From the NCBI GenBank assembly GCA_002989075.1, contig PSQN01000016.1, positions 682,001 through 746,000 on the forward strand: a stretch of 64,000 bases of DNA. The letters run 5' to 3'. Under the pieces are notes generated by a model. The model made no database searches, was not told the DNA's origin, and worked only from the letters and a program-made list of their open reading frames with translations. This DNA comes from Arthonia radiata (taxonomy: Eukaryota > Ascomycota > Arthoniomycetes > Arthoniales > Arthoniaceae). A program made the translations under genes and the position numbers. Positions 1,951 to 56,977 of the stretch are shown here, piece by piece; within the stretch, counting starts at the first letter, position 1; each line of letters begins with the position of its first letter.

Positions 1951-3006
1951 TATTTCTCTGTGTTCAACGGTCTTAATAATCTCTTTATCGCGTAGTTAGA
2001 ATCCTATTGCGATATAGCAACGTTGCCGACGTCGCTATATTAGAGTCGTTGGATACACTATATAATGCTTTAATAAGGCTGGCTGCGATCAGCCTTGTAC
2101 TAGCCTAATATAGTAAGATTGTAACATTTAGTAGTCTTACTATAGATATAAAGTAAAGCTAAAGATATATTAAAAGTATAGTAATACTTATTAAAAACTT
2201 TTAAAAGAGAATTATAAGATAATTTCTTTAACTTATACTAAGAATATAAGATAATACTAGACTTATTATAAATACTATTAGTAGTCTATATCTTATTAAA
2301 GATACTATATTAATTAGTATATTTAGTAAAGAAATAAAAAATACTTATAAATTGTAGTATAGAATGTATTTAATGTAACAGAGGTTATTAATAATAGTAA
2401 ACAAAGATTCTATCTATATTAGAGTTTTAGTAAGATTATTAAATTAAGCTATTATAGACTAAAAGTATTTAAAATAGATCTATAACGTATTAGCAATACT
2501 AGTAATTTTATTATAAAATATATTATATATACTATACTTTTAACTCTTTTAGCTCTATATGCGTCTTTAAGCTAATTTACGCCTAAAAAAAGACTATAGT
2601 AGCTTTATAAAGATAATAAAAGTCTATATATATACTTTTTATATATTTTAAGCCTTTATATATATCTTAGAAAAGTTGTTCTTATATATAAAATATATAT
2701 AAATTAAATCTACGACTATTATATATAGACTTATATCTTATACTATTATTAAAGCTATTAAGAGAATCTTAATTAGCTTAAGTATTTTATTATTATTGTT
2801 ACTATAATAATAAATATTAGATAACTTTTTAAGATAGCTAAGCGATATAAGCGCTCTAGTAACGTATTTATTGCGCTACGTCTTTAGCTAGCTAGTAGAA
2901 AGGTATTATAAAAATACTAAGTATATTAACATAGTTTAATATATTAATAAAAAGAATAAGAGTAAGCTTTATAGAAAAAGCTCTATAAGAAAGAAAGTAA
3001 TTATAA

Positions 3007-3190
3007 TACTATAGCTATATTATAGCTGTCTTAAACTTACTTTAGAACTAAAGCGGCCTTAGATCTAGATCGGCCTAGAGACGTCTAGTATACAGAGGCG
3101 TTTATCTATATTCTTTTTTTATTTTTTAGTTATTTATCTATTATCTAGTAAATATATTATACTTTACTTTATTTACTACTAGCTCTATAG
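3007..3190 (+). repeat. Interspersed repeat, inverted relative to 62698-62883
   Basis: About 185 bp that closely match the reverse complement of 62698-62883. The core TTAGTTATTTATCTATTATC and the neighbouring GATCTAGATCG are shared. Similarity fades on both sides, so this is a fragment or one end of a dispersed element. Confidence 0.8.
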
Positions 3191-5438
3191 TAAGCTAATA
3201 TATATAGTAAGATAAATTCTCTATCTAGTATAAATTATTTTTTAACTATATATTTTTAAGTATAATTTATTAAGTATATTTAATACTACTATAAGTACTA
3301 TTAGATACTTACTATAGATACTATATAAAGAACTACTTAAGAGTAATTTTAGCTTACTAGCTTTTTAGTATAAGAAACTTAAATTAAATTAGTAGCTCTA
3401 TATACTAGCTCTATAGTATTTATAGCTAATTTTACTATAGTAGCTACTATAGCTAAAGAGAAGGTTACTAGAATAAGTATTATAACTATAAAGAAGGTTA
3501 ATACTAAAAAGAAGAAGAAGAAGAAGAATATTATAGTTAAACTACTTACTATTAAGAATGCTAACTATTATCTTTAGATATCTTTCTTATTATTATCTTT
3601 TATAGCTTAAATATATATTCTTTAAGTATTATATTATATTACTAGTTAATATATAAGTTTATACTAGTAATCTAGCTAGTCTTTATCTAGTACTTCTTCT
3701 TCTTCTTCTTTTAAACTATCTTCTTCTTCTTTTTAGCTAATAAGTCTAAATAACACTTATAATAGTTAATAGAGCTCTACTTACTAAGCTAGATAATAAT
3801 ACTATTTAGTAGCTTATTATTGACTATATTACTATAGTAGATAGTAAGCGTTTATATCTTTATCTGTAGCTTATTAAGTATAAAGTACTAATATATATTA
3901 TTAGAATAGTATTAATTTAGATAATTAATTCAGATTTTATTAGTATACTGATACTACTAAATTAATACTAACTCTATAACTATAGCTCTTTTTATATTTT
4001 TAGTACTTATTTATAGTCTCTTTTAACTAGTCTGTTTATATATAGAGACGTTAGTATAGTATTAGTATTAATCAAGCTTTATCTACTAAATCTAATAAGA
4101 TAATAGTAGTAGTAGAGTATTTACTCTTCTTAACTAAGCTAACCTTCTTCTTCTTAAACTAGCTAGATATCTTAATTCTTACCTTTAAAGTCTAAGTTAG
4201 ATACTCTTTTTACTTATTTAATATTATATTCTCTACTCTTATTTAGTAGTCTAGCTCTAAATTAAAAAGTAATAATTAAGTTTATAATAATCTAATATAG
4301 ATACTTTTAATAAAGACTTAATACTATACTAAAGATATATTAATTTAAAATATATTAAATTAGCTACTAAGTACTATTTCTACTACTATATTATTAAAGC
4401 TACTATACTTAAACTTATTAAGTTAATTTATTTAGTAAACCTTACTACTAGTTTTAAGCTTTAACTCTATACTATATAGAAAGTATAGCTCTTAGTAGGC
4501 TACCTACTAATAAGTCTTTTTCTTATTATTAGCTATATTAGAGTCTTAATTCTTAAAGTTCTTATACTATAGATTAGCGTTACTATACTATAGATACTAC
4601 TTATATTATAAATTTTTCTTTATATATATATATACTTATACTTTATATATAGCTTACTAGTAAAAGTAAAGCTAAAGTAGCCTTACTCTCTTAATAAGAG
4701 CTAACTACTATAAAAATCTATATATATAAATAAATAGCTAGTAACTTAATATATAGTAGTATCTCTTTTTAATATATAGTTATATAGTAGTACTTCTTCT
4801 TTTTATAAGTTTCTTCTTTTATAAGCTATATTTACTTTTATTTCTTCTTTTATTTATAAATATTCTTCTTAGCCTTCTTATAATTATAATAATAATATTT
4901 AGCTTCTACTACTTTATACTATTTAGCCCTTTAACTCTTTTTTAACTACTTTTCAACTTTATAAGCTTCTTTATATATATTTATACCTTCTTAGCTACTT
5001 TTATTCTCTATATATAGTACTATATATTAGTTATATAGACTTTCTTCTATTTTTAATTAGATATATTAAAAATTACTATACCAAAAAGCTACTCACTAAG
5101 AGCTTTAAATTTACTTAATTGGAATAAAAAACGTAATTTTAATAGTAACGGTAAGGTTAGCTTTTCTACCTGTCCGAATTTTAGTAGTAAGCAGGGCGAA
5201 AAGTGGGATAAGGTGAGCACGGGCCGTTGTAGCCGATTAACTTACACCCCAATTCCTCTAATGAAGTCACGCGTCACGAAAAGTTTCTAACCACACCGAA
5301 ATCATGCCCTGCCCGTACAATGCGTGAAGATAATCAATATTCACACGCTCTTTAACCGTCGTTAAGCGTGCTTTGCTATCGCCGTCTCGCCCTCCTCCAT
5401 CCTCACTCTCACAGCCGTTCAAAACCACCTCTTCTAAG

Positions 5439-19077: not shown

Positions 19078-22045
19078 AGTCAGTACGCGCCATAACTTAT
19101 GGTCATTATGAGCCACATTGCCAAGACAGCAACGATTCATTCCCGTCTCACGGCAAGCAATCAAGGATGCAGTAGCATGAACTTACTCTCAGATCCTTTG
19201 CCTTCCTCGTTCCTTTCTCCCAATCCTCAAGCAGGTCATTGCTCTCCCGCGGCTTAATATGTTCGCCCGCGGTGCCCACCGTGATATGCGCCATGCTGTT
19301 CGTAGTCTTGAACCCGTTCTCGGCAGCCTCGGGCAACCTTGCAAGAATAGCCATCACGCGATCATCCCAGACGACGCGCTCGAGCTGCACCTTCGCACCG
19401 CCTAGATCAAGATCTTTGATGGGGTCTGTGATGGCGCTGGGATCGGAGGCGGCGGCTGTGTTGGCAGAGGTAGTGGTGCCGTCCTAGGCGTTCAGTCAGC
19501 ATCAGTTCCTCTGGCGGTGATGATGGATTTCCAACGGTCTGGGGATCTCCCTTTGAAATAGGACCGGTCTTTCCGCCTTTTCAAGTGATTGGAAGCATGT
19601 CACTCGGGGACCTAGAGACGCTCTTCAGCTTACCTGTTGCGCCAGAGCCTCTGCTTGTTTCCGAGTCCAGAGCGTGGACAAGCCGTTCCAGTAATCGCTG
19701 TGGGCACTGGAGGCTGCACGGTGAATGAGGGTCACGTGAAACGCTTGCTGGATGCGACGACTGTTTTTCAGCTGGTTGTAGGTCCTCTTCGTGTCTGCGT
19801 CAACGTTGCGGAAGACGGCATCGATGATGTGTGTAATTCGCTCAGCCGGAAGAGATATCTGGAAGTACTCTAGTCGGGTGGGCTTTTGCTTGCCGGCGCT
19901 GTTTTGGAATGCTTCTTGCTTCTTATCGAACTTTCGCTGCGCTTTGTGTTCCTGCTTGTTCTGTTTGCTGGAGGACAGATCATGCTTGAGGTCGGGCTTG
20001 TAGTCGGAAAGTGCCTGGATTCAGACATCAGTAAAGTGCATGAACAGCCAGCACGTCGATGAAGATGCATCTTAACCAAACAAAGATGGTGCATGAGATT
20101 GGCGCAGACTTACCCATTCCATAGCTGACTCCATTGCTTCTTCAGACGGCATCTCGAATAGCTTTGGAAACTCTTCGTGCAGCTTATGAACGACGTGGAA
20201 GAGATTATCGCGTGACTCGGCGGTCACGTCCAGGTCAATGACAAGATCAAATTGGTCGTCTGGCTCGCGCTGAGGGTCGCAAGGCTCGAAGCGCTTCATG
20301 AAGCCATCCATAATACCGATGATCTCATCTTGGCTCTTGCTGTCAGCATGAATGGTTTGGTGATTGTCGCCCCGTGAAAAGATGCGGTTTCGCATAGCTT
20401 TCCTGATATCGGAGTAGTTGCCTCGGTCGTGTACCCAGTGCAGAGCGACGAACTTTGCGTCATTCACTATGTTCTTGATGTCGGTGACAATCTGTTGACG
20501 CTCGCGACGCTGGTGATTGTTTCGGTCAGCGATGAGAGCAGGTGCTGTAGCCATGGCCGATGTGCAAGCCACGGCAAAGCGGTTGGCGCGGTTGCCTTTG
20601 CCAGTGATGTTATCGTTCTGGACATGGCCCCAGTTGAACAGTTTTGTAAGTGCTAGGGCGACAGTGGTCTTGCCGCAGCCAATAGTGGCGATCGGCACAA
20701 GAACCACATTTCGCTCCACTGCCTCGTCTGAAGTGCCGTCTTGTTCCTCGCTGCGAATGATGTCGGAACCTCTGAGCCCTACGATTGAACCTGTCAGCAT
20801 AATGCGAGAGCGAGAGCACACACCCTGGTAATGCTATCACTGAGAATGGTGTCTGCAGTTAACGCCAGCATGCTGCCGTGAAAGAACTTTGTAAAGAGCG
20901 CAAGATAGAAAGGACGTGGAGATTGTAGACTTACCTTTCTCTCGGAGGAAACCTTCTCGCATGGCAATGATCCCGTGATTCTGATTGAAGCGTTTGCCCA
21001 AACTTGGGTCCTTTGCGAGCTGTCGTCGAGCGTACAGCAAATACTGATCTGTGATCTGCTTGTGCTTCCTGTATTTGGGTGGTCTACCGGCGATGGCCGC
21101 TTTGGTGACCTCCCGCCACTGCCGATACATGAGGTATGGCTCCTCGAACTTGAACTTGAAAAACCAGTCATGCCACAGGCCCCCTTCTGAATCTCGTTTC
21201 TGGCAGCGAATGACAAAGCCTTCGGTATCTCGACCCTCGTAGTTGCCAGTCTCTGCAATTTTGTCCAGGAATGTTCGCACTTTTGAGAGATCATTCTCAA
21301 CGACGTACATGACTTTACGAAAGCCCCACTCATCAGCAAATTCATCGACCAAGTTCCCGGAGAATGTGGCGAACTCGGGAAGGTTGAGATTGATACCATG
21401 CAGATAAAGACCAGCCACGTCTGGCGTGTACTCGAGCACATGCTCCTCGAACGCATCGTCGCACAGCTCAGCAACGGCCGTGACGTTCATGGCGCGAAGT
21501 CGCTTCGCTAGGTCACCCCTCGTTCTGCCCCTAGCTGCGAGCTGCTTGTCAAGCCAGGCTTCTCCAGCAAGAGCATGATTGGCACTGTCATTGTCTCGCG
21601 GGCCAGTCGAGTGCTTGCTCGTGACCAACAGTGTGTTGTCATCTAGCCCGGCGATGAAGATGATGCAGCCGTTTTCTTTGACACTGAGCTCGTAAGGTCC
21701 TCGCGTATTCTTTTCGACGTTGCGCCACTCGGAGTCTCTGACTTCATCAACGTTGAAGAACTTATCGTAACCGCGTGCAGCGATCTCAGATTTGCCGTTG
21801 TTGATGTGGGTGAACAGACCACGTGCGTAGGTAGGCAGGAAAGACTTTTTGTAGTCCCAGTCGTTTAGTTGCCATGAATCTACAGTGCAACCAGAGCGAT
21901 CGGAGATGTTGTATGTCTTCTTCTTGTACCGGAAGCCCTTGGCTTTGGAGCTCTGGTTCATTCGTTTGATTACCTCGCCGACTTGGACGGCATCTTGAGC
22001 CTTGTACGGGGCATTGTTGCGGTCTCGAAGACCCCCAGTGGCCAT
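19013..22045 (-). CDS. TRL1: Fungal-type tRNA ligase TRL1 (ligase-kinase-CPDase)
   Basis: Five exons on the minus strand: 22045-20935, 20778-20114, 20014-19634, 19483-19187 and 19066-19013. Introns are 156, 99, 150 and 120 nt with GTAAGT or GTAAGC donors. The product is 835 residues, the usual length. The adenylyltransferase domain has the nucleophile motif VKENGC (Lys about 123), plus ARGYDKFFN and FKFKFEEPYLMYRQWREVTK. The polynucleotide kinase domain has the P-loop IGCGKTT (about residue 400). The cyclic phosphodiesterase domain has paired HxT motifs, HVTLIH (about 685) and HITVGT (about 785). TRL1 heals and seals tRNA exons after intron removal and splices HAC1-type mRNA in the unfolded-protein response. 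The ATG at 22045 has a good context (CAACATGG). An upstream in-frame ATG at 22174 would add 43 Arg/Ser-rich residues. The start is divergent from the CSC1 gene. Confidence 0.9.
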
Positions 22046-22652
22046 GTTGTGTAGGCTGCGCCTGAGCAATGCTGAGGATGGAGCAGGAAAATCTGGGAAA
22101 GTAGGGAAGGTTGTAGACTGGAGGTCTTGGTAGAAACGGCAGGTACGTTGCGCAGCCAGGCGCTTCGTAAACATATATTTCGGGACCTACCTCAGTCACG
22201 CATTGGAAGTTCCCACCGCCATTCTTATACGGTTGAGGCGATCCAGCGTCATTCATCTATTCCGAAAGCACAGCCCGCATTTCGTGATGGCTCATCTTGA
22301 GCATTCAAAAGACGGATACGGAGACGCCTGTTCGGGAAAGCTACAGCGCGGTTAGCCGGGCGCTAGCAGCTGCCAAGGCGGGCGGCCAGAAACGGCGATA
22401 CTGGGTCTTGGCACGTCCCTGGATCTTGGACCCGGCGTCCTTCGTTATTGGCTCTCGACCTATCACCACCCTGGTCACTTTCTCTTTCATTTCACAATCA
22501 AGATCCAGACATACCACCACCAACTTCTCCCTAAGGCTCGGCGGGCTACGGCCACACGCTCATTTCTTCCTGCTTCTTTGTCTCACGAGCAACACTCCTC
22601 AACGTGCGCCATCCTCTGGTGACGAGTGTCAGATGCATCCCCACCCCAAATC

Positions 22653-29282: not shown

Positions 29283-29679
29283 ATGGAGTAATTAAAGGCA
29301 ATGGCTTAGATAGGTAGAGGAATGTTAGGCAAGTGAAGTAATGAAGCGGTTGCCACTGTATTCTAATGATTCATATCCCCATGTATCAATCGACCTGCCG
29401 ACTGAGAGGTTCCAGAAAGAGTGGGGTGAAGCGGGTTAATGCAGGTTCACTCAGGGACTAATGTGGGGTTTCACACGCGATCAACGTCACAGTCACAGTC
29501 ACTGCATCCACTACCCATAACTACGCGGAGAGTAGAGTGTTAGCTGGTTCCTCAACGGGTGCGGCATTCGCTACCCAGGAGAGAAAATCATAGTAGGGGC
29601 AAGAGTGCAAGACCATCATGACTATCCAAACGACTCAATTCTGCATCTGCGTCTGCGCTTCGGAAAGACTACTTATTAC
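29283..29679. other. 3' flank of xylosidase gene, start of gene desert
   Basis: About 400 bp without a gene. It probably contains the xylosidase transcript end. The unit homology of the tandem array cannot be followed with confidence this far left. Confidence 0.5.
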
Positions 29680-32600
29680 AGACGATGATGAACCTCAACT
29701 TTCTCCAGACGCGATGACAAGCACCACTTCGCCCACTATCAGCGCTGGCAAGAGCTGCAGATGTCCTTTCGGTCGCTCTCCATGGTTGCGTCTGAGCAGC
29801 CCCTGAGTAATCAGATCGACTCGGTCCCCTCTTGTCCCTCTTCCACCACTTTCCGCTGGTCGTGCAGCTGCTCGATAGTAAAGCCAACACAAGAAAGGTC
29901 CCACGTCGTTACACGGCCAGAAAGAGAGACACAAGTGAGGTCCTATCGCTCTCGGTCAATGGCGTGTGGGAAATGAGAATGTGATGTGATATGAGACGCG
30001 ACTGTGTTTTCAATACTGAACGGTCTTCCACACCACGACCGAACATAATTACAAACTCATCGAAGCGACGTAGGGGCCTCTTTAAGCATCACGTATCAGA
30101 GCGACACGTTAGGTATCCCTTACATCGACGCAGACAGAACGCTCAAAGTTCACATAGGGTTGTGGGCGATGATGGGCGTCACCGCTATTTTACGTTCAGC
30201 ACCACACTGACGGTTTTTAAGCCCATCTCCTTGTTATGCGACATGTTCCTTTCGACATGTTATATACGAAGCCTCGCCCCTAGTCTTTGTCCTCTGGCCA
30301 TACCTTGCCATATCACAGGCAGACGCTGGTAGACAAGTAACAGCAGTTTCATCACCTTACTATATTATATTAGCACTATCAACCGATCTCCGCGCTCTAC
30401 TCACGGTACGTGCAACGGTAGTAAGTTATCGTGTATGAGGTAATTATTCCGTCACTACCGAAGGGTCATCCCTACCACGACTGAACAGAACGCTCTGCAG
30501 ACAGCTGCATGGGGGCTCGCTCAAGGTTACTTATCTCAGCGGCTAGCTGGAAACCCGAGAACTCTACGCAAGCGACTGACACGCTTGAAGGATGTGGACG
30601 ATGATGAGCGTCACTGCTATTTCAGTCCAGCACCTTACGTTCTGTTTAATGTTCTGTCTCCTTACAGTGCGATATTCCTTAAGAACTTGGTGAGCGTAGT
30701 CTCCCCCCTGAGACTGTTCACTGGTCATCTCTTGCTATATTATAGGCAGATGCTCGCAGATAAGTAACAGCAGTACTACGACCTAACTATTAGCAGTAAC
30801 AACCGGTCTCCACGCTCTACTGACGGCGTGTGCGCGCTAGGATGAGGTACGGTGTATAACAGATTACTGTCTTACTGATGCACGTCTCTGCACACCACAA
30901 CCGAATAGCAATATCCTTGGAGTAACAGAACGTAAGGCGCTCGACCACACTCACGTGTCGAAAGGAATGGCTAGATCACTGAGCAAGACACAACCATCAA
31001 GGCTAGAAAAGAGTGTGGACGATGATCAACATCACCGCTGTATAAGGTTCACCACCACACCTTATGTTTGCAGTCATGTCTCCTCGTAGATTCTGCCACC
31101 TCATATACTTCATTCACGCAGTTTCGCCCCTCATCCCCAGACTCCTGCTCGAATCTTGCCGTATCCTAAGCAGGTGATCGTTCACAAGTAGTAGTAGCCG
31201 CATTGCCTTGATATTGGCGGCAAACCCCGTTCTTCGCCCTCTACTAACGGTGTGTAAAGCAATAGGCCAAAATGCGGTATATAAGGTATGTAGCATCTCT
31301 TCGCTAATCAGTCTAAAGCACAACTAGACAACAACGTTGGCAAAAGAAATGGAAAGTGAGGGGCTCGTTCAATTTTACGTGTCGTAGCTACTTGCTGACC
31401 TTGCACTGCGTAAGGTGCAGACGGCAGACGAAAATCTTCGACGGGGCTGTGGTGATGATAGGCGTCACCGCCATTTCACGTGCACCATCCATGCTTGCTG
31501 ATTCTGTTCATTCAATCATAAGTTCCTCGAATTTCGAAACTTCGGTAAGCATACCCCTGCCCCCAGTCCTTGAATCCGTCATCTTGCCGTATGCTGAGCA
31601 GATGCTTAGCAAAAAGTTACAGCAGTGCCGTTTCATTAATCATAGCAGTAAGAATCCTTCTTCGCTCCGCGATAACGGCGTGTGAGCAGTGCGAGTGCGG
31701 TACATATGAAAAGGATGTTGTCTCACTGCCGTACGTCACTGCACCACGACTAATGAAACCATCCCATGATGCCGCAATATGGACCCAGGGGCTCGTGCAA
31801 AGCCTAGTGTCGATTAGTCTCGTTTGATCTTCGCTGACAAAGATGCAGACAGGTCAATGCGCGCTTGAACAGCGGCTTGAGGACGATGGTAAACGTCAGC
31901 ACTGTGTCATCTCCACTGCCAGGTTTCCAATAAAGGTCTGTTTTCTTACAGTGCGACACCCAGAAAGCTTGTTGCGCACGGTCTCCGACCCCCTGGGCCA
32001 CTTCCATGGTCCAGTCTCGCTGTGTGGCGAGTAGATCATTGCGGGAAAAGGACCTCAACCAGACGCAGCAGTATTATTACCTTGATATTGGCAGAGGAAC
32101 CGTTCTCCACTGCTGAATGACGGCGTGTGCGCAATGTGAGTGTGGACTGTATGAGTTGTTTTTTATCTTACTGCTGCGGTATCTCTTACACCACGACTTA
32201 TAATAATAGCAAGACTCTGCAGACACGGCGATCGAGGGGGCTCCTTCGTACCCATGGGAAGAGACTCGCCAGACTGGCAGTGAGGAAGATGTATACAGCA
32301 GGCTGGAAATTGTTTGTGGACGAATATTAACGTCACCGTTATGGCATGTCTCTCTATAGATGCTGTTCAAGTTCTATCTCTTTGCAATGCGACATTCTGA
32401 GCAGCTGGTACGCACAGCCTCACCGCTCATTGGCTTTGCTTCTTAGACTCTGCTGCGTAGCAAGCAGATGCTAATAACTAAGCTGCTCTCGTTGTGGCTT
32501 TTTATAGCGTTATACAATTTACGGACAGGAGAGATATCTGTGCTCTCTATCGAAGGCGTGCATTCGCAATGGAAGTGGGGTCTCTTATATAAGGTGGTTG

Positions 32601-33000
32601 TTATCTCACCTCCAGACTCTTACTCACACCTCAACCAATCAAGAATGTGACTTGAGCTACAATAGAGCGCAGGGGCTCGTTCAGACCTGTGTCAGTACGC
32701 TTCATCCGAATCGCATCGAGCAAGAGAACGCGGACAAGTGTTGGGGTAGTTTGAAGACGATGACGAGCATTAGCGCTGTATGTCAGTCACTACATCTTCT
32801 GTTGATCCAAATCTCTCTTCGTCCAGAGAGACCCCTATTGTAGCGGATCTTCATGGTCTCGTACTCTGTCGCCTTCCCTTCACAGGTTCTTGCTGTAAAG
32901 CAAGCAGCAGCTACCGATAGGTACTCGCGCTAAGACACCTGTAGTGTTATGGTATATCATGAGACACGCGTCTGTCATGAGGTTTGCCACGGAATACTTA
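29680..33000 (+). repeat. Old tandem array, about seven to eight units of ~430 bp
   Basis: A block reading roughly GTGGACGATGATGAGCGTCA recurs at 30162, 30594, 31015, 31449, 31879, 32316 and 32753, giving spacings of 432, 421, 434, 430, 437 and 437 bp. Other blocks recur in the same order in each unit: a CAGATGCT..AAGTAACAGCAG block about 150-180 bp on, CTCTACTGACGGCGTGTG-like sequence about 230-240 bp on, a CCACGACTAATA-like block near 320 bp, and GGGGCTCGTTCA near 360-370 bp. A partial unit precedes 30162 from about 29680. Units have diverged heavily, with indels, but are not especially TpA-rich. No coding potential. Not recognised as any known repeat. Confidence 0.8.
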
Positions 33001-36000
33001 CTCCGAGAGGTCGTCAGTAGCAAGGCATCAACCAAGCTTGAGTAGGCATGGCCCATTTGCTCAACGTCTGTTAGATCGCGTCATACCATTTACTAGTGTC
33101 GGATGATAATTTAGTATATCTACACCGCCAACAGTGACCTGAAAGCCTGGTAAGACGCCTGAAAGTTGTAAACAATTAGCAGTGGATGAAAACAATATTA
33201 GGGGATCTATTCACGCAAAGCGCAAGCCTCAAGACTAGTATCATATTGTTGCGTCTGTAGTTAGAGTACCTTGTCAACGCAGTATGAGAAGATTGACTAT
33301 CATTACCGTAATTACGGCAGTTGTGCCTATCATATGGTTCGGAGGCTAGTGCACATTATAATGTTCCAAGACAATCCGCTGTGCGCTCGTAGCAAGCACG
33401 ATTACAGCGCACATGTTGATCCCCTGAATTGAATAACCTAAAGCAAATTTCCTTACAATCCTGTCAGTTTGCAAATTATCCGCCTACATGCTAGCTTAGA
33501 ACACCCTTTTATAGACGGGAAATGACGCCCAACTTACTACCGGCAATCTCGGTCATTGAGGCTTTTACTACATAACCATGTAATCTTGCAAGATATTCAA
33601 CCTGCTGATATATATATATCTAGAATTTCTGTATTATCTCATTGCAGGGGCATCTCTGAAGGGTGCTCAACACCTGTCGGCTTTGTTAATTATGAGACAG
33701 AATGAGCCTGCAGGCAGGAGTGTGACGACGTTCATTAGTAGCAACAAAACGTATTAAGAGTGCGCAGCGTGCAACTCCTTTCTTATCGCCTACGTACGCA
33801 ACGAAGCGAGACAATACAGCAGAAATGCTATTAATGCCCCCACACACGACTTGCATTTGATGGTACATACTCTTTCGAGCTGTTTGACGAGCTCTTCGTC
33901 TTCCCTTGGCCCTTTAATACCCTTAACGTTTGTATTGACTAGTAGCTGACTCATAAATTAACCTTAAAGTAGCAGCGTTCAAAGGTGCATCTTTATTGAG
34001 TTGTACCAGGGCACACAACTCTCACACATGCTCAAGCAAAACAGCTAATATATGATAGCCGAAACCCTCCAAGGGGTACAGTGGGTCGCCAGGATAGCGG
34101 CCTAAGTAATCTTTCGATTATATCTGATTGATCACCTGGCGTCGTGTGCAATGATCGCAGTTTTTATCAATGCTGGTGGGCGTTCTTACTGCGAGTAGCA
34201 TCATCAAGACTATCACCTGTGCAGGTAGGATGATGTATTGAAAACCAACGCCGTGCAAATGAATGTGTTGCATGACGTCCAAGCAGTTGCAGTGGAGCGT
34301 GTGCAATTGTTCGAGCCCCTCTTGCCCCAGTCTCTCATTTTTGTCTGTTCTCTTACTCCTGGTGGATATTATTGTCTGCATACTAGCCCAGCATATTCCT
34401 TAAATAGCGTCAAGAGAGGATATAATGAGAATATTATACGTGCGCCGCGACTCTCATGTTCTACCCTTTCAGACCACGAGAACGGTTAAAGAGATTGAGG
34501 CGTGAAACAATGCACACAAGAAGATTCTCGATAGGGGGATCAAACGGTCTCAACGAAGGTCAACAGACTGTCATTACCATTGTAAGCTTTGCATCAGCGG
34601 GGTGCGGGAGTAACCTCGTGCACCTAATACAATTTTTATGGTTATTAGCAGTAGCGGAACTGTTCGAGCAGCCTTCAGTTCCACAGCGCATCCATTGTAT
34701 CAGATTTATGCTGTGAAATTGTATGAAGCATTGAGCAAGAGCGAAGCCCCTTCGATGCCGCGATGCGTGTAGGTTTCTAATCGGGTCTTGTGCTCTTTTA
34801 CGCCGTTTATTAGAAAGGAGCCCTTAACACTTAACGTTGTACTTTCACTGTAGTACAATGAAGCTAGCATTGTCCGCGGCTTTGATAGAAAGAACTTGGA
34901 CGTAACTATAAAAGTGAGGCTTGCCAACCTTTAAAAAGCCTTCGTAGTGGAGATGAAGTATTCAGGCAAGCATACAGACTGTAAGCAGCAGCGTCGAAAA
35001 TTCAAGGGGAAAGCGAAGCCTGAAAGCTCGCTATCGGATCAAAGCAGTTGAACAGTACTAGGTCCAGGCTCAAGTAGGTTTGACGGTAAGCTGTTTTACT
35101 GCGGACTGTAAGTGAACAGCATCATTTCAAGCAAGATACCCTCTCGCAGACTCAACCATCCGGCCCGCCAGACCAGAGCTTTGGAGACAAGTGCAGCCTG
35201 CGACCCCTACGTAAGCCTCTGTGCCTCTGTTTCTGTAGGGAGTGCCTTTCTAAGTTCCTAGCCTACCCTCCTACCTCTCTGCACCGATTGCTCAAGATCT
35301 GTAGGCTTCATCAGCTATGGGACCAACAAGACCGGAGAGACAGAAAATGGTCTGCTGTAATTTCCTTTCATTGTGCAAGGAAATCATCTATAAGTTGAGT
35401 TTCCGCTGTCTGGATTCTGACTTGTACGAGCAAGCGTGGCTCCATGCAGTACGAGTCAAAATCGGGGACAGGGGGGCTTTCTGTCTTCAGTCAAAGTTCC
35501 TTCATGATGGTTCCCGATGAGCTCTTGGCCTCTTGTCAAGATAGTTTGTATGAGAACAATGACGAGATGATCATCAGTATCGTCGAAACCCATATATCGT
35601 GTTTCCTGGAAAGACCTTTGCGCCCTGCAATAAGCCTGCTGGACTGATGTATAGTTGCATTTATTTCTGGTATATGAGGACCCCTGTGCATAATGCTTCC
35701 TATGCAGAATCCGGGAGTCTCACTTTTGCTACTGAGGCTCAAAACCTCAAGCTTGCAATGATGACATGATTGTTCTGCTCTCAAAGAGATGAATATCAGC
35801 GCCAAGCGTTCCGAACGCATCTCATATCATGTGGGAGATGACTGGACTACCGTCTTCGATAATTGAGCAAATGCTACACATGGCCACCGCAACCATCAAA
35901 GAGCTTAGGGGCTGTGAAAGCTGCTCATAAATCTGCAGTCTTCGTGCAACAGGTTTGATGAATCTTCTCATTAAGAACCTGTGGCGATTGCGATAATGCC

Positions 36001-39000
36001 CGCCGTCTGAAATGAGCGGCATCATCACCGCCGATGTATGCGCAACAGACTTATGAAAGACTGTGCTCTGCGCACGCAACACAGAACAACTCGCACCAGG
36101 CAAATAATGATCAAATCACGTAGTCCCGGGCATTCTCATACTTCTCTTTTCGCTACCTTTGCTTATCAAAGTCGTCAACTATCTGTTCCCATGCTGCAGT
36201 TAGCACCCACATGAAAAACGAAAGCTGAAAGCCTTGGGCAGTTCGTTGCATGAACGGCCATCGAGATGCGATTGGCACTCGGTACTTGTTTCAGCTTTGG
36301 CCAACCTCCTTATTCAACGCAAGGGGCCACAAAAGGTATGCTCTCATATCTGTCACAGCACATAGGGGTCTTGTAGTTGTATGGTGCCAGCATCTCACCC
36401 AGGCTTTTGTTGATATTATGAGCACACATGAGCGCCTAATAGTAAGTACAGATGCCGGATGATGACCGTTAGTATCAGACTAAGGAATCACTGCGACATG
36501 CTATAGAGGGTCTTCTAGTAGCGTACGTGTTGAACCGCTGAAAGATTCTCAAGCCAGTTGTTTAAGCGCGACAGCCCTTGTTAGCAACGCGACAGTGAAC
36601 CTCTGATGTTGTCCAGTGCATGGTCGTGGCAGCTGCCAGATGTCAGATCTTTATGGCAGTACGCTATTCTAGGAAACTACGTGTTCATTCGATGAAAGAG
36701 AATGGTAGTAGGCTACCTAAAACCTTACTCATATGTATTATTTCAAACAATATGGCTGGCGGGCCACCGCCAAGCCTTTTCCTGCCATCTCTATTTTCAC
36801 TACACTATATCAACAACATTTCTACAGCTGCCTTGACATAGGGGCGTAAAAGCTAAAGCACATTTGCTGGGTAACGTCGTGACTGCGCGGTATGTCCTGC
36901 TTTATTAGCGATGGAGATGAACGCCTTTCATCGCGCATAAACAGCATCATCGCGCTTCGACACCCGACGCACCTATGCTAGGTTTGCTGAGCTGCTCGGA
37001 CGTAGCACTTTACGGCAGTAGACAGCAAAGACTATCATACTTCTTACCCCTATGATGTAATCGCATTCGTAGTCTTGGTCAAGACAAGCTTTACAATTTC
37101 TTTCGTCCGCACCAGTCTCTACTTGCGTACGCTCTGCGTCAATTCTAGCAGCGTCAGCCTAATTTGGCCGGTGGATGTGGTAATCGTTGCAAGCGCCTAT
37201 AAAATGCGCAATAAGTAGTAATCCGGTCGCCGCTGTGTCCCATTGTCGTCCAAAGGTCGATACCACTGCTCATGCATTACGAGTGCGAAGGGGTCTCATT
37301 AAACTACCCTACCTATCACGTCCTGCATATACTCAATCGACTGTGCGAGTTTCTAGTCTAATAGCAACGTTTCTGATCTGCGCCGTCAACCTGATCAGCA
37401 GCATCGCTGCAACCAAATCTACAAGCAAATATATACCATTGACGGGTCAATCTGCGGAGTTTTTGCCTCATGAGAAGCTTTCCTTAGTGGCAGAAGAGAC
37501 CCCTCACCCGCGGATCATATCAAGCCATGGGTAGCCTAGCTGTTGGCGTTACTTATTAGCCGTATATCTAAAATTGCAGAGCCTTGTGGAATATAGGCCG
37601 TGGAACGTCTTTACATTGCAGGACACTTCGGAGTCCTGCAAATGGGAAAGTATACGGCGGTAGGATGCTGTAAGTGTCAGTAAATCCAAGTTCAAGTATC
37701 TGTTGCTTACGATCGAAGGTGCGAAAAGCGGAGAAGTAAGCATTCCAGCCCAAGGGCTAGCACTGCCACTCGCGAGGTGCAAGTCCATGGTTGCAGCTCC
37801 CACGTGAGAGGCGGTGAGGTTCCGGTGAGGTCTGCACTCAGGTGATGGTTAGAACATTAACGTGATGACTATTAGCACCGCCCGAGTTTCTCACATGATA
37901 CGAAATGCCTTTGGATCGATCGTTGGGTAAGCCAGAGCGTGTGTTCATCACTCGATTGATACTGACCTTGGAGTCAAAGTGGACATGTGAGCAACACTGT
38001 CGCTATGCTTGATGCCTGACCACGACCCGCGCCGATCTTCCGATAGTACCTTGTCAGGACCACGCAGCCCTCCAACGGCTTTCGCGCCGACATGCTATAG
38101 GATCTTTAGAACTCAAGAGTTCTAGCTGAACATGCTCACCGCTTGCTTGAGCCATCGATGAAACCAGAGAAAGAGGGGTAAATATTGAGCAGGCTTGTAA
38201 GTCACATTTGCTTCTGTTGAATCCGGAAACACGGTAAGTACTGTTGACTGGAGAGTCAACCTTGATGACGAATCTTGTCGTTATATACTAAGATCTTGAG
38301 GACTCAACGAATCTACTCGCGTTTCCTGACTTGCAGTCGTTGCTGCAGCACTGAACGCTATCCCCTATGATGTGGTCAGAGAGCGAGTCAGTCGCTGAGC
38401 CGTAGAAAAGAACGCGGATGATGTTGCGTCAGGATGCAAAGCCGGTACCTCTGTTTGTGGGTGCCTATAAGGGCCGCAAGGCAAGTAAAGCTTCTGCCAG
38501 AAGAGCTTCTGCTAGTTGCACGACTTTGGGCCCATAGTGGCAAAACTGTTGGCGGTATCAGCGCAGCTATCTTCAATAAGCAGCAGGGGCGCTTGTAAGT
38601 AAAACTCGAGCGCCAAGCCTATCTTCTTCAGCTGGGATTTGCAACGATAGGCTTTCGAAAGCGCTGGCAGTGATATTCGTCACCCCCGCATTGGTCTGAG
38701 TATTTGATTGCAATGTTAATGTCGGGTCAGCGGGACTGTCATCGGCTGCTAGTGTCATCGGCTGCTATGGCATGGTGTTCACCTCGAAGTTGGGCTGCGC
38801 TGCACGAAGCTCGTCCCAACTGTTGTCGTTCCTTCAGAATCAAATTTTCTTTGGCTTTAAATAAGGTCTGATAGTTCCACAAGCGATGCGGTATCCGTTC
38901 ATAATACAAGAGCACGTGAACCAGACATTTTGATCATTCAAGAACCCATGAACCTGTAAGGCTTGACTCGCTTTTGTTCCTCCTTCAATAGCCCGGCGAT

Positions 39001-41122
39001 GGCAGTTAAGGGCGAGCATCGCGACATTGATACAATGAGGGGTTTGCAGTACCATTAAAACTCGTCCTTTTATCACTTGCTTGCAAAGGTGCTCAGGGGT
39101 GAACAGAGATTGCGAGCAAAGTGATGTGATGGCGCGATCATCATCAGCATCACATTAGACCGGGTGGCGTTGGGTTCCACTTCTCAAAGCAGCACGTTTG
39201 GAGAGTTCACAGGAATTCGTGCCGAACATTCAGCTTGCTGTTACCCCTGTAGATGTTCCATTGCCCATTCAGCTAGCTTTACTCGCGTCCGATGTTTCAA
39301 CAATTGTTCCTGGAGGTAAGACAGCTGTGTACCTTTATTAGCACGTCATCACCTAGCTCACGCTTCCCTTAATGAGAGAAATGCATACTTGGATTGGGCA
39401 GCTTATAGCTGTAGCCTAGTCAGCAACGTCGCCAGGCCAACGCACTCAGACTTTGACTGGCAGGGGCTGCGTTCAAGGTTCTCAAGGCCCCGCTGAGAAC
39501 CTAGTGGCAAGATCCAGTAATATTGCCTGCTCAGTCGCCAAGTCAGACGATAATGACGATGTTCTTCGAACAGCGTAGTGGGGACCATTGCTTCGATCAT
39601 GCGACCAGCCGATATTATGCCATGAGAGTCGCAAGACTTTCAGGAAGGCGCGCAATCTCTCACAACAGTGTCACGACCTTTCTCCCAACTGCAAAGCTAG
39701 CACATCTAATCCCCTCTTTTGCATCATTTGCATGTGTTGATCCTCTGCATCGTGTGCATTCAATCGCCCTCCATGCTTCTTCCGCGGCCGCGCTTGAAGG
39801 GCCTTTCATTTGAGTGCCACTGGCTGCTCGGGATTGATCGGAGCCCTGAACAGACGCAACCGGGGCCTTGCGGGGCCGGCCTCCTTGGGCGCAAAGCCGA
39901 TAGATCACATCTCATGTCTTCTATACCTTTCTCGAGAATGCCTCGCCCTTAACTTCATGCGACTTCTTTTCTCGTCTTGCTATGATGCTATGAAAGTTTT
40001 CAGGCGTTGACAGAGAAATGTGCGTACTGCAGTTGAGGTGACATATGTCAGATGCAGGCGTCGACCATTCCGTACTATCTTCCAGTGTCAGGGAACCCAA
40101 GATTATCATAAAGTCCACGAAGAAGATTGACACTCTGTCTACGATTATCTGCCCTTGGGCAATTTCGGCGCACATGTTTACTTCGTCCCTGGCACTCGAA
40201 GAAGCGCTGTCTTAAAACGGCAAACGGTGGTACGCAAACTCAACATCACCAACGGTGTTCAGAACGCGTGAGTAGGAACTTCAAATTTTGCCTCTTCCTC
40301 TCCATAGTAAGTCCATTGTCAATAGTGTCTGATCGTCTGGCAGATTACCAAGTTAACAAGACAGATGTACGGGACGCTTGAGGATCTTCAGTTTTGAAAC
40401 CCGCTTTATTGAAGTGTCTACGACCTCATAGCCTATCGTTTCTACTCGCAAAACGCGAAGCTGGTGGCCCATCTATTTGCAGAGCTGGCAAAAATGGCAA
40501 AGGGGACTGGCTGCCAGTTCCGTTCTCAGCCGGGTAGTGTTCGCTTAGGTTGTACGCCTTCGCTAGACAAAACACCACAAAATCCCAGAATAGCTTTGCT
40601 TGCCAAAGGTAGGTTGTCATTAGAGGGGTCAGTTGGACGACTTTGTTGAACGATGTTTCCTACAATGATGGTTCTAAAACCTGCAAGAGTAAAGGGTTAT
40701 TGGATGTGCCAAGCCCGAGTACATCGGATGAATCATTTGTGGCGTATGTCTGTGCGTGCAGTCGGGCTAAGCAGTGCTAATATATTTGAGCATCGTCACA
40801 ATTTCCAGCAAAATGCGTTGACTTCAGCATTTCAATCGTTCTTGTCTGATCTCATTGATCGAGGTGTTGGCGAGAGTGGCGCTTCGTCTGCATCATCAAG
40901 ATCATCGCCACCATTGTTGGTCGTCGCCTGAGCTCATGTTACGAAATCAGCTAGACCAAATCGGGATACCCGCACTTGGGTCGCATTCTCTCCAGCTGCC
41001 TTCCATCCTTCCAACTTCTTTTCATTTTCTCAGTCTGTTCAATCCACAAACAAGAACTTCATTGCTCGTAGACAAGTAGAGGCCAGATTGCCTATATCCT
41101 GCTAACGTCTGCAAAACACAGC
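33001..41122. other. Gene desert
   Basis: About 8.1 kb of mixed composition, less AT-rich than the window ends. I find only short unsupported frames on both strands, and no recognisable protein family, tRNA, or long repeat. A short stretch near 39780-39900 is GC-rich (GCGGCCGCGCTTGAAGGG) but reads as no known gene. It may hold non-coding transcripts or very decayed repeats; nothing can be supported from sequence alone. Confidence 0.55.
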
Positions 41123-52200: not shown

Positions 52201-53802
52201 ATGCGGCTCTCGCGGCTACATGTCAATACGAGGCGTTTTATGCTGGTCACATTCCAATTAGCGGGACTCATCCATCTGGCCGTTCTGTACGCATGCGGCG
52301 TCGATGCAGTTGACAAGTCATCAGATGACTCAAATGGCCGAGCATCCGATTTGAAAGCAAAATGGAGTCACGATGTTGGCTGCCGGCTTTTACGCAATCC
52401 GAAGTGATGCTGACTGGCTGCTAGTGGAGCTTCTCGGGGATCAGCACCTTTGCTCATCTGCCACACGAGCGTTGTCTCGTCGAACCAGAGGTCAATTACG
52501 ACGTGGCTATTATTGGCGTACCTTTCGACACGTCCGTCAGCTATCGACCGGGTAAGTCTGTCTCCGCTTTCAATTTCAACTCTTGCTGCAAATGCTGCAG
52601 GTACATATCCCAACGATCTGGTCATGGTGGGAACTGCATATGTCTGGGGCAGCGGTCGGCCGGAGATCCTGGATTGTATGGGAGGCGTACTTCAAGCTGC
52701 TGAAATGATTGTACAGGAGCTCGCTTTGGGCCGAGGGCGATTCGAGCAGCCTCTGCTCGCCAAATAGCCATGCGAGGTTTCAATCCACGCGCTAACATCA
52801 ATCCGTATAGATCATGGGCGAAGATTATTGATTGCGGAGACATACCAGTAACGCCTTTTGATAATGCTCTGGCGCTACGCCAGATGAGTGAGGGCTATCT
52901 TGAACTTGCGTCTCGAACCCCCACGTACAACTGGGGTGACACAAGGAACTACCCGCGAATACTGATCTTGGGAGGGGACCACGCGATCGGGCTCGCAGAG
53001 CTGCGTGGCCTGGCTAACATTTACGAGCAGCCGATCACGGTCCTGCATTTCGATGCACATCTTGACACCTGGGATCCCAGAGCTTACGATAGCACATGGT
53101 TGGAACAGGATGTACCGATCGAAGAACAGCAAAGCGCCTTCACCCATGGAACCATGTATTGGCTTGCTTGGACGGAGGGTCTCATTGCCAATCGATCGGT
53201 ACATGCAGGTCTCCGCACCCGGCTGACTGGCATCGAAGATAACGAAAGCGACGACTCTCAGGGATGGGTCCGCATCGAATCCGATGCTATTGCTTGCGAT
53301 CATCTAGGTGAGTTTCCAATGTTCGTTCGGGGCTCAAATGTCAATCAGCGGCTGTACGCTTGCAGTACGGGCAAGGAGACTCGTTTAGTCGTCGTTGGAT
53401 AGGCTAGAAATGCCAGAGGCACTTTCATTGGCCAGCAAATCGCTGACGGATAAATCAGGTCCCATTGGAGTAGCCAAAAAGATTATGGACATCATTGGCA
53501 CTGAGAGGCCCGTCTACCTATCTGTCGATATAGACGTTATAGATCCCGGACTGGCGCCAGGCACGGGCACACCCGAGCCAGGCGGCTGGACTACACGTGA
53601 ACTGATCCAAGTCCTACGAGGTATCGAAAATCTCAACGTCGTTGGCGCAGACGTCGTCGAGGTAAGCCCTTCATACGATGGGACAGGGGAACAGACTGCG
53701 CTGGCAGGTGCCCAAGTCGCCTACGAGCTCCTGACAAGCATCGTGAAGCGGGGATTGAAGCGCGGTGAAAAGGGCGACGCGCCCATAAAGGATGAGTTGT
53801 GA
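52201..53802 (+). CDS. Agmatinase-family ureohydrolase with signal peptide and KDEL end
   Basis: Four exons: 52201-52374, 52425-52551, 52717-53307 and 53408-53802; 428 residues. Introns are 50, 165 and 100 nt; the first donor (GTTGGC) is weak, the others are GTAAGT and GTGAGT. The manganese-binding ureohydrolase motifs are complete: [18 protein letters not shown] and [10 protein letters not shown] with [31 protein letters not shown] and ARFGPRAIR mark the agmatinase/guanidinobutyrase branch (urea released from agmatine or a related guanidino compound). The N-terminus has [26 protein letters not shown], a likely signal peptide or anchor, and the protein ends PIKDEL, an ER-retrieval-type tetrapeptide. 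I infer an ER-lumenal enzyme. Substrate is uncertain. Divergent from the CIA30-domain gene. Confidence 0.88.
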
Positions 53803-54330: not shown

Positions 54331-56977
54331 ATGCCTCAACCACTGAACTCCAAAGAAGCTTCACTCTTCCGCCAAGTTGTCAAAAATTATGAGGGCAAGC
54401 AGCACAAGAAAGGTGAGCTTAAAACCAGTCCGACCCTTCGAGTATCTCTTGCACCACTTGTGTAGTTGCGCTAAAAGCACTTGCAGGCATCAAAGCTGCG
54501 GATCAGATCCTGCGCAAAGTGCCCGACCATGGCGACACCCAAGCCATGAAAGCCCTCATCAAGAACACCATGGGAGACAACGACGAAGCCTTCGCTCTCG
54601 CCAAAACCGCACTACGCAATGACATGAAGTCCCATGTCTGCTGGCATGTCTACGGTCTACTATGGCGGTCACAAAAGAACTATGAGGAGGCAATAAAGGC
54701 ATACACCCAAGCACTCAAGCGTGAGCCGGATAGCCCACAGATCTTACGGGACTTGAGCTTGCTACAGGTCCAAATGCGGGACTTCTCGGGCTACGTGGAG
54801 AGCAGAGGCACCATGCTACAGAACAAGACAACTTTAAGGCAGAATTGGACGGCACTGGCTGTTGCACATCACCTGAACGGCAATCTCGATGCCGCAGAAA
54901 AGGTCCTGTCCAGCTACGAGAGCACACTGCAGGGCGAGCCATCCATGCGGGACGTTGAGCACAATGAGGCAGTCATGTATCGTAACATGATCATTGCAGA
55001 ATCGGGCGACGCGGCGCGGGCCCTGGAACATCTTGACAGCATAGAGAAGAAGACTCTGGATCGGACGGCACTCATGGAGCGAAGAGCGCAATATTTGTTG
55101 GATTTGAAAAAATTTGATGAGGCAGAAACAGCATACAGGGCGCTTTTGGATCGCAACAATGAGTACAGAGCATATTACGACGGCCTCGAGCGGGCGTTGC
55201 AGGTCGACAACGGAGACAAGCAAAAGCGAAAGAAGATATACGCCGAGCTCGTGGAGAAAGACTCTGATGTTGATGCCGCTCGGAGGATACCGCTCGACTT
55301 TTTAGAAGGCACGCATAAGCTCGTCGAATAGGAGGCTCAAGCTGACCGAATACAGGCGACGACTTTCGAGGAGCAGCCGATACTTACCTGCGCCGCATGC
55401 TCCGCAAAGGCGTACCCTCTACCTTCAATAACGTCAAGTCCCTCTACTCCGACCCCGCTAAGAGAAAAGTCATCCAAGACCTCGTGGAATCCTACAAAGA
55501 CGAGAAGCTCCAAGTCAACGGCGTGAATGGCGACGCTCCTAAAGATGACCCCTCCGCCCGCTGGGAAAAGTCCATCCTGTACTTCCTCTCCCAGCATTAC
55601 AACTACTACCTCACGCGTGATCTCACGAAAGCCATGGCTTATACCGACCGTCTCATTGACCTTGCCCCGAAGACTTATGACTGGCACATGAACAAAGCGC
55701 GAATATACAAGCACCGCGGCCAACCCGTCGAGGCCGCAAAACAAATGAACATCGCGCGCGAGCTCGACCTCCGCGACCGCTGGATCAACTGCAAGTGTGC
55801 AAAGTACCAACTCCGAAACAACGAAAACGACGCCGCCCTCAAAACCATGAGCAAATTCACCCGCAATGAGGTCATGGGTGGCACCCTCGGCGACCTCATC
55901 GAAATGCAAGGCCTCTGGTACCTGACCGAAGACGGCGAGGCCTACATGCGGCAAGCGCGGTATGGCCTCGCCCTCAAGCGCTTTCAGACCATCTTCAACA
56001 TCTTCGAGACCTGGCAAGAAGACCAATTCGACTTCCACACCTTTTCACTTCGGAAAGCGCAGATAAGAGCCTACATAGACATGATCCGGTGGGAAGACCG
56101 GCTGCGCTCACACCCCTACTATACCCGCGCGGCCCTCGATGCGGTCAACGTTTACCTCACCCTCCATGAAAACCCCACGATCGCATCCTACTCCGACCTC
56201 CCCCTCGCGCTCGACGCATCGCAAACGCACGACCCCAAGACCATCAAGAAAGCCAAATCCGACGAAGACAGAGCCCTCAACGACCAGCGCGAAGCCGACA
56301 AGAAAGCCGCGGCGAAGAAGCAGAACCTAGGCCAAGACGGCGAGGTCAAGAAGACGGACGAAGACCCCAAGGGCTTGAAGCTGGCGAACACCAAGACGCC
56401 GCTGGAGGACGCGATGAAGTTCCTTGTGCCGCTCATCGAGTTCGGCGAGAGCGATCTGGAGGTACAAAAGGTCGCGTTCGAGGTGTTCATACGCCGGAGG
56501 AAGCCGTTCCTGGCGTTGAAGCATCTGCTGGCGGCGTTTGCCGTGGATGAGAGTGAGCCGAGTTTGCATGCACTGGCTGTGAGGTTTTGGATTGAAGTGG
56601 GGAAGACCGAGGAGGTGCCGAAGCAGGTTCTGGAGCTTGCGGAGAAGAATCTGCCTAAGGCTTATCAGTCTGGGAAGGATCTGAAGGGTGTGAATGAGAA
56701 GTTCTTGAAGGAGCACGCTGATCAGGTAAGGCATGTGTGCGCGTACGTGAGGGCGCAGAGGGCGCTCAAGCCTGATGCGGCTGTGGATGTGAAGGTTGTG
56801 ATCGACGCGGTCGCGAAGACGAAAGGGCTGAGTCTTCAACAGGCTGAGGAGGCGGTGAGCACGGTCAGGGCATGTGGCGCGAGCACTGATGAAGCATCCA
56901 AGGTTGCGGCGAAAGGCGCGGAGGTGCTTGGGTTCGGTAAGGAGTTGCTGGATCGAGCGGCGAGAGCTGTACGATGA
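54331..56977 (+). CDS. NAT1: NatA N-terminal acetyltransferase auxiliary subunit NAA15 (NAT1)
   Basis: Three exons: 54331-54412, 54487-55308 and 55356-56977; 841 residues, the usual length. The protein starts MPQPLNSKEASLFRQVVKNYE and is a chain of TPR helices: GDNDEAFALAKTALRNDMKSHVCWHVYG, in parts ALAKTALRNDM and SHVCWHVYGLL, YEEAIKAYTQALKREPD, PKTYDWHMNKARIYKHRG, and WINCKCAKYQLRN. A Lys/Asp/Glu-rich stretch at about 600-640 matches the family. NAA15 holds the catalytic subunit NAA10 and docks on the ribosome for co-translational N-terminal acetylation. The second intron (55309-55355, 47 nt) begins GC rather than GT but has a good CTGAC branch point and CAG end; without it the frame stops at 55331. 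Confidence 0.93.

Follow-up and report, generated by a model that had tools for sequence, protein, structure and literature searches.

A candidate ER-lumen agmatinase-family ureohydrolase of a filamentous fungus, with a predicted N-terminal signal and a C-terminal KDEL

The window analysed here is a stretch of 64,000 nucleotides from the ascomycete Arthonia radiata (assembly GCA_002989075.1, contig PSQN01000016.1, positions 682,001 to 746,000 of the forward strand). At 52201-53802 on the + strand it carries an agmatinase-type gene of four exons separated by three GT-AG introns of 50, 165 and 151 nt. Joining 52201-52374, 52425-52551, 52717-53307 and 53459-53802 yields an open frame of 411 aa that ends in DAPIKDEL, immediately followed by the stop. 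Its parts are as follows.

52201..52374, + strand: exon 1, with a predicted n-region (R2, R5, R11, R12), a hydrophobic core at about residues 13-31, a predicted cleavage site after residue 36 and the start of a linker
52375..52424, + strand: intron 1, 50 nt, GT-AG
52425..52551, + strand: exon 2, with the end of the linker and the start of the ureohydrolase core (WSFSGIS...SYRPG)
52552..52716, + strand: intron 2, 165 nt, GT-AG, with an internal CAG/GTACAT that divides it into 49 and 116 nt
52717..53307, + strand: exon 3, with the GGDH and DAHLDTW metal motifs, a long loop A and the HGT catalytic-histidine motif
53046..53075, + strand: stretch encoding a ten-residue motif common to bacterial agmatinase-family proteins
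53308..53458, + strand: intron 3, 151 nt; another acceptor, before 53408, leads to a 428-aa model
53459..53802, + strand: exon 4, with a conserved-core stretch of 15 residues and then the C-terminal tail
53788..53799, + strand: KDEL codons AAG GAT GAG TTG, directly 5' of the TGA stop

No pathway cluster is evident among the immediate neighbours of this gene. An MFS-type transporter (PF07690; 48424-49921, - strand), which we take to resemble fungal drug or polyamine exporters, adjoins it on the opposite strand, and a gene for a NatA auxiliary subunit (NAA15-like; 54423-56977, + strand) lies just downstream. Elsewhere in the window are a Tim44 gene and a T4-type RNA ligase domain (PF09511, E 1.3e-92; 20840-22186, - strand), presumably as in fungal tRNA ligases. 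Together with the spliced gene structures, these neighbours suggest a filamentous ascomycete as the host. A gene-poor tract of about 11.7 kb at 29370-41070, with a single ORF of at least 120 aa inside and a GC content mostly of 43-53%, adjoins gene-rich DNA. Several AT-rich short tandem repeats occupy 2694-4825, which may be, at a guess, a repeat tract that has undergone repeat-induced point mutation. Scans of the window for tRNAs and Rfam families gave no matches.

The initial annotation had given the enzyme as a 428-residue product, which arises when exon 4 starts at 53408, with the intron-3 acceptor 51 nt earlier. Scored against a profile of bacterial relatives, built from the 104 long-enough sequences among the 119 matches listed, the 411-aa model reaches 275.8 bits, and models of 407, 425 and 428 aa reach 274.9, 266.2 and 265.5, respectively. 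We therefore prefer the 411-aa model, although the 407-aa version is nearly as good. The N and C termini are identical in all four intron-3 models, so the claim made here for signal and tail is unaffected; the length first proposed gives way, while both ends of that product stand. Introns 1 and 3 each have a CTGAC motif resembling a branch point 15-16 nt from their ends, and the branch-point-like pattern tested was not found in intron 2. One intron of 165 nt is the simpler reading of intron 2 (52552-52716), although its internal CAG/GTACAT would also allow a stwintron-like arrangement or two consecutive introns (49 and 116 nt) with no exon between them.

That the gene model errs at one end, by starting in a different exon or by splicing out the KDEL codons, is in our judgement highly unlikely. 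The model is a prediction from the DNA sequence, alternative acceptors of intron 3 also keep the frame open, and the four weaker GT sites at 53743-53799 (GTGAAG, GTGAAA, GTTGTG and GTGAAC) could in principle serve as weak donors. Against this, the reading frame offers no ATG between the preceding stop and the one at 52201, the KDEL shares an exon with the conserved VEVSP region and the core, and a search of 53691-53802 for a donor of the stronger consensus found none. A hidden last intron is unlikely.

The enzyme itself is readily placed in the ureohydrolase superfamily. Residues 84-389 match PF00491 (Arginase) with an E value of 7.8e-83 and a score of 278.6 bits, compared with a curated cut-off of 22, covering profile positions 2-279 of 280. 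The ureohydrolase metal motifs named in the initial annotation were located, intact, in the 411-aa protein: GGDH at 186, DAHLD at 213, HGT at 244 and VDIDVIDP at 320. These comprise the GGDH, DxHxD and DxD ligand motifs of a two-manganese centre together with the catalytic HG motif. Part of what these metal and catalytic motifs do is general background on ureohydrolases. The roles of others are described for the agmatinase of E. coli (PMC8125230). Among solved structures, the best matches are guanidinobutyrase, proclavaminate amidinohydrolase, guanidinopropionase and agmatinases. The protein falls short of the curated cut-offs of two agmatinase models, with 152.7 bits versus 174.3 for TIGR01230 and 222.3 versus 302 for NF002564 (PRK02190); as both are used to annotate proteins of bacteria and archaea, a score below their cut-offs does not rule out agmatinase activity.

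Relatives of the core occur in bacteria. A DNA pattern for the motif HFDxHLDTWD (at 53046..53075) occurs once in the window and in none of 100 shuffles, and it recurs at 119 or more loci in prokaryote genome contigs. All 119 listed are bacterial by title, mostly from actinobacteria and SAR11, and every one of them encodes a relative of the query protein, with 34-45% identity to it over 160-349 residues. The same pattern is absent from viral contigs. A protein-seeded scan gave no pattern match in viral contigs and 26 in genome contigs, none of which was confirmed as a relative. None of the relatives listed from these scans of viral and prokaryote genome contigs is fungal. The match to the query starts at its residue 61 in 101 of the 119 bacterial matches listed. 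Of the 106 relatives in that set with a complete C terminus, none has an xDEL-type end. Together, these two observations indicate that the signal and the tail are additions to a shared enzyme core.

At the C terminus, the final codons read AAG GAT GAG TTG TGA. KDEL had been noted as exactly the last four residues, and so it is in every splice model, its codons directly preceding the stop. Under assumed residue frequencies, chance alone would give about 1.5e-5 of proteins a KDEL end, and a set of 11,000 proteins about 0.24 ends of the KDEL or HDEL type. The initial annotation had urged caution over KDEL, given that S. cerevisiae uses HDEL. That concern is largely answered by a published survey of M. 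oryzae, A. nidulans and S. cerevisiae, in which KDEL or HDEL is described as needed by more than half of the predicted ER-resident proteins; an xDEL-type signature in the absence of a predicted transmembrane segment was counted there in 43, 36 and 28 proteins, respectively (PMC5430845). KDEL is thus an acceptable fungal signal.

The N terminus likewise has the character of a secretory signal, as first proposed from its hydrophobicity. The strongest 19-residue Kyte-Doolittle window, starting at residue 13, averages 1.88, with a helical moment of 0.09, and the best cleavage score, 5.52 by a version of the von Heijne 1986 matrix, falls at VDA/VD, after residue 36. In 2,000 shuffles of the first 60 residues, the cleavage score was reached by 171, the hydrophobicity by 15 and both jointly by 11. 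As a control we took the N termini of 88 bacterial homologues among the matches listed (31 of the 119 were left out because they have no Met in the chosen range), and none of the 88 reached either the cleavage score or a hydrophobicity of 1.6. Were the segment to remain uncleaved as a signal anchor, the C terminus would still face the lumen.

Animal agmatinase is mitochondrial, and the four arginines and absence of acidic residues across the first 34 residues would also suit a mitochondrial presequence, with the KDEL end then being accidental. We judge this very improbable. The segment is strongly hydrophobic from residue 13 and has a very low helical moment, which makes it secretory-like rather than amphipathic; over 18 residues, the moment is 0.30 for the window that begins at residue 1 and 0.34 for the one from residue 4. 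The rarity of a KDEL end by chance also speaks against an accident, as does the HDEL or KDEL tail reported on an agmatinase of Fusarium (PMC5347122).

That Fusarium enzyme is a published precedent for the location proposed here, and it corrects the impression, recorded in the initial annotation, that ER signals on agmatinases had not been described. When the ER of F. graminearum was isolated by fluorescence sorting, 21 proteins were enriched with it, and HDEL or KDEL is reported on only four of them, namely two disulfide isomerases, BiP and the agmatinase FGSG_05446 (Boenisch et al. 2017, PMC5347122). The observation thus dates from 2017, when it appeared as a single line of a proteomics study whose main text contains none of the words agmatine, polyamine or putrescine (PMC5347122), and we found no later work on an ER-tagged agmatinase in the full text of the open-licence literature. 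Other reports touch on the same gene number. FGSG_05446 rose 29.4-fold in F. asiaticum given 2 mM agmatine, and putrescine stood at 39.8 nmol/g with agmatine versus 20.3 in the control (PMC3624000); it is also tabulated, with the value 4.7, among the arginine-metabolism genes of a transcriptome study on living and dead wheat (PMC4960244).

A second line of evidence comes from A. fumigatus. AFUA_5G13180, annotated 'agmatinase, putative', is a protein of 391 aa with a SignalP score of 0.68 that was recovered in formic acid extracts of conidia of a rodlet mutant and was absent from the parental strain (PMC7389560). It is listed alongside the disulfide isomerase TigA, a translocon-associated protein and Erv25, and the same lists also hold glucanases, chitinases and GPI proteins, the authors speaking of the cell wall (PMC7389560).

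Taken as a prediction, residence in the ER lumen is therefore well supported: by the signal and the KDEL seen here, by the Fusarium agmatinase with HDEL or KDEL in sorted ER (PMC5347122), with FGSG_05446 as the analogy on which the prediction draws, and by the A. fumigatus agmatinase that was extracted with proteins of the ER and secretory pathway, albeit with cell-wall proteins too (PMC7389560). The last of these cuts both ways, in that extraction together with wall proteins also fits secretion and, by analogy, counts against an ER reading. The enzyme could instead be mainly secreted or wall-bound, with KDEL retrieval only partial, and degrade host or environmental agmatine in the wall or the medium. 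The A. fumigatus agmatinase is among the signal-peptide proteins that its authors assign to the cell wall (PMC7389560), and Agt1 and Gbu1 of C. albicans are predicted to be secreted (PMC7439472). However, the lists from A. fumigatus are no proof of secretion, since they include the ER proteins TigA and the translocon-associated protein (PMC7389560); KDEL stands at the exact C terminus of the protein described here, and the Fusarium agmatinase with an HDEL or KDEL end is enriched in the ER (PMC5347122). On balance, we regard a mainly secreted or wall enzyme as unlikely, although less so than a mitochondrial one.

Which guanidino compound the enzyme would act on is a separate matter. Most likely, a lumenal enzyme would act on agmatine or a related guanidino compound. 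Between the DxHxD motif and HGT runs the equivalent of loop A of the E. coli agmatinase, in which mutants of loop A or loop B are reported to change the KM or kcat for agmatine (PMC8125230). This loop has 23 residues in the query versus 8 in 117 of the 119 bacterial matches listed (the other two could not be parsed), and the residue after HGT is M in the query versus P in 106 of the 119, with M in three. As a consequence, a substrate cannot be transferred from the bacterial relatives. The loop itself (53076-53144 of the window) exceeds that of the parsed bacterial relatives by 15 residues, and may mark both a fungal group and a substrate.

An ER-lumen enzyme that acts on a guanidino acid, such as 4-guanidinobutyrate, rather than on agmatine would share the location preferred here and differ in its substrate, and we hold it to be a serious, if less probable, possibility. 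The top solved-structure match is the guanidinobutyrase of P. aeruginosa (E 1.2e-42), and the scores against the agmatinase equivalog models fall below their cut-offs. An A. niger guanidinobutyrase is of similar size, at 422 aa (PMC10833137), and a human enzyme annotated as an agmatinase is reported to hydrolyse guanidino acids (PMC9772407). Pointing the other way is the induction of the Fusarium agmatinase gene by agmatine (PMC3624000). Two weak hints lean in the same direction. First, the query shares HGTM with a Burkholderia 'agmatinase', 4dz4. Second, among the four PDB enzymes compared, 4dz4 lies at the shortest tree distance from the query, 2.55 versus 2.70-2.77, in a tree of the query, four PDB segments and 39 thinned bacterial cores, drawn from the 104 long enough among the 119 listed. 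Both arguments lose force because 4dz4 is itself only a putative agmatinase (PMC8125230), and the scarcity of HGTM beside HGTP among the bacterial matches listed likewise makes the shared motif a weak guide.

Overall, the gene probably encodes an agmatinase-family ureohydrolase of a filamentous fungus that works in the ER lumen by virtue of its signal and its KDEL, hydrolysing agmatine, most likely, or a near relative. The N-terminal signal would take the enzyme into the ER and probably be cleaved after residue 36, and the core would then fold as a usual two-manganese hydrolase. Molecules that escape to the Golgi would be returned once an Erd2-type fungal receptor had bound the KDEL end. The reaction in the lumen would be hydrolysis of a guanidino group, most likely that of agmatine or else that of a close analogue such as 4-guanidinobutyrate, and its products would be urea and an amine or amino acid (putrescine or GABA). 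Agmatine that is taken up could thereby become usable as a source of nitrogen or putrescine.

It seems to us an even chance that a dedicated guanidino-compound hydrolase is conserved in the ER lumen of filamentous ascomycetes, so that part of agmatine and polyamine metabolism, yielding putrescine and urea, would run in the secretory pathway. Its role might be to process agmatine that enters from plants or microbes, or else to supply processes in the lumen with polyamines. The gene in the window adds a further independent sequence that has both a signal and KDEL. Should filamentous fungi generally prove to have a functional ER-lumen agmatinase, arginine and polyamine metabolism would have one of its steps in an unexpected compartment. 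The agmatine response of trichothecene-producing Fusarium would then involve an enzyme from the same ER fraction as the enzymes of the toxin pathway.

Finally, we compare the protein with systems already known. The bacterial HFDxHLDTWD proteins among the matches listed share its core, but differ in having no signal-like N terminus (88 tested) and no xDEL-type end (106 complete). N. crassa AGM-1 is likewise an agmatinase-like protein of a filamentous fungus, whose null mutants are reportedly unable to grow (cited in PMC7439472). In C. albicans, Agt1 and Gbu1 are fungal ureohydrolases for agmatine and 4-guanidinobutyrate, respectively, and are similar in having a predicted route into the secretory pathway; they differ in being yeast enzymes assigned through growth tests of mutants, with no ER tail mentioned in the pertinent passages of that report (PMC7439472). 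The A. niger 4-guanidinobutyrase is a fungal ureohydrolase of comparable size that is also longer than the P. aeruginosa enzyme, whereas its substrate is known and the relevant part of its description mentions no ER signal (PMC10833137). AFUA_5G13180 resembles the protein described here in length (391 versus 411 aa) and in its predicted signal peptide, but is known from conidial extracts of a mutant and is reported as absent in the parent (PMC7389560). FGSG_05446 is similar in being annotated as an agmatinase, ending in HDEL or KDEL and being enriched with sorted ER (PMC5347122). We assume that the gene in the window is its orthologue, and the evidence that signal and tail are kept among the fungal enzymes comes from published descriptions. 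The ER-tagged agmatinase is thus real but not new in kind: it is a known, little-studied type, to which the A. radiata gene adds another member.
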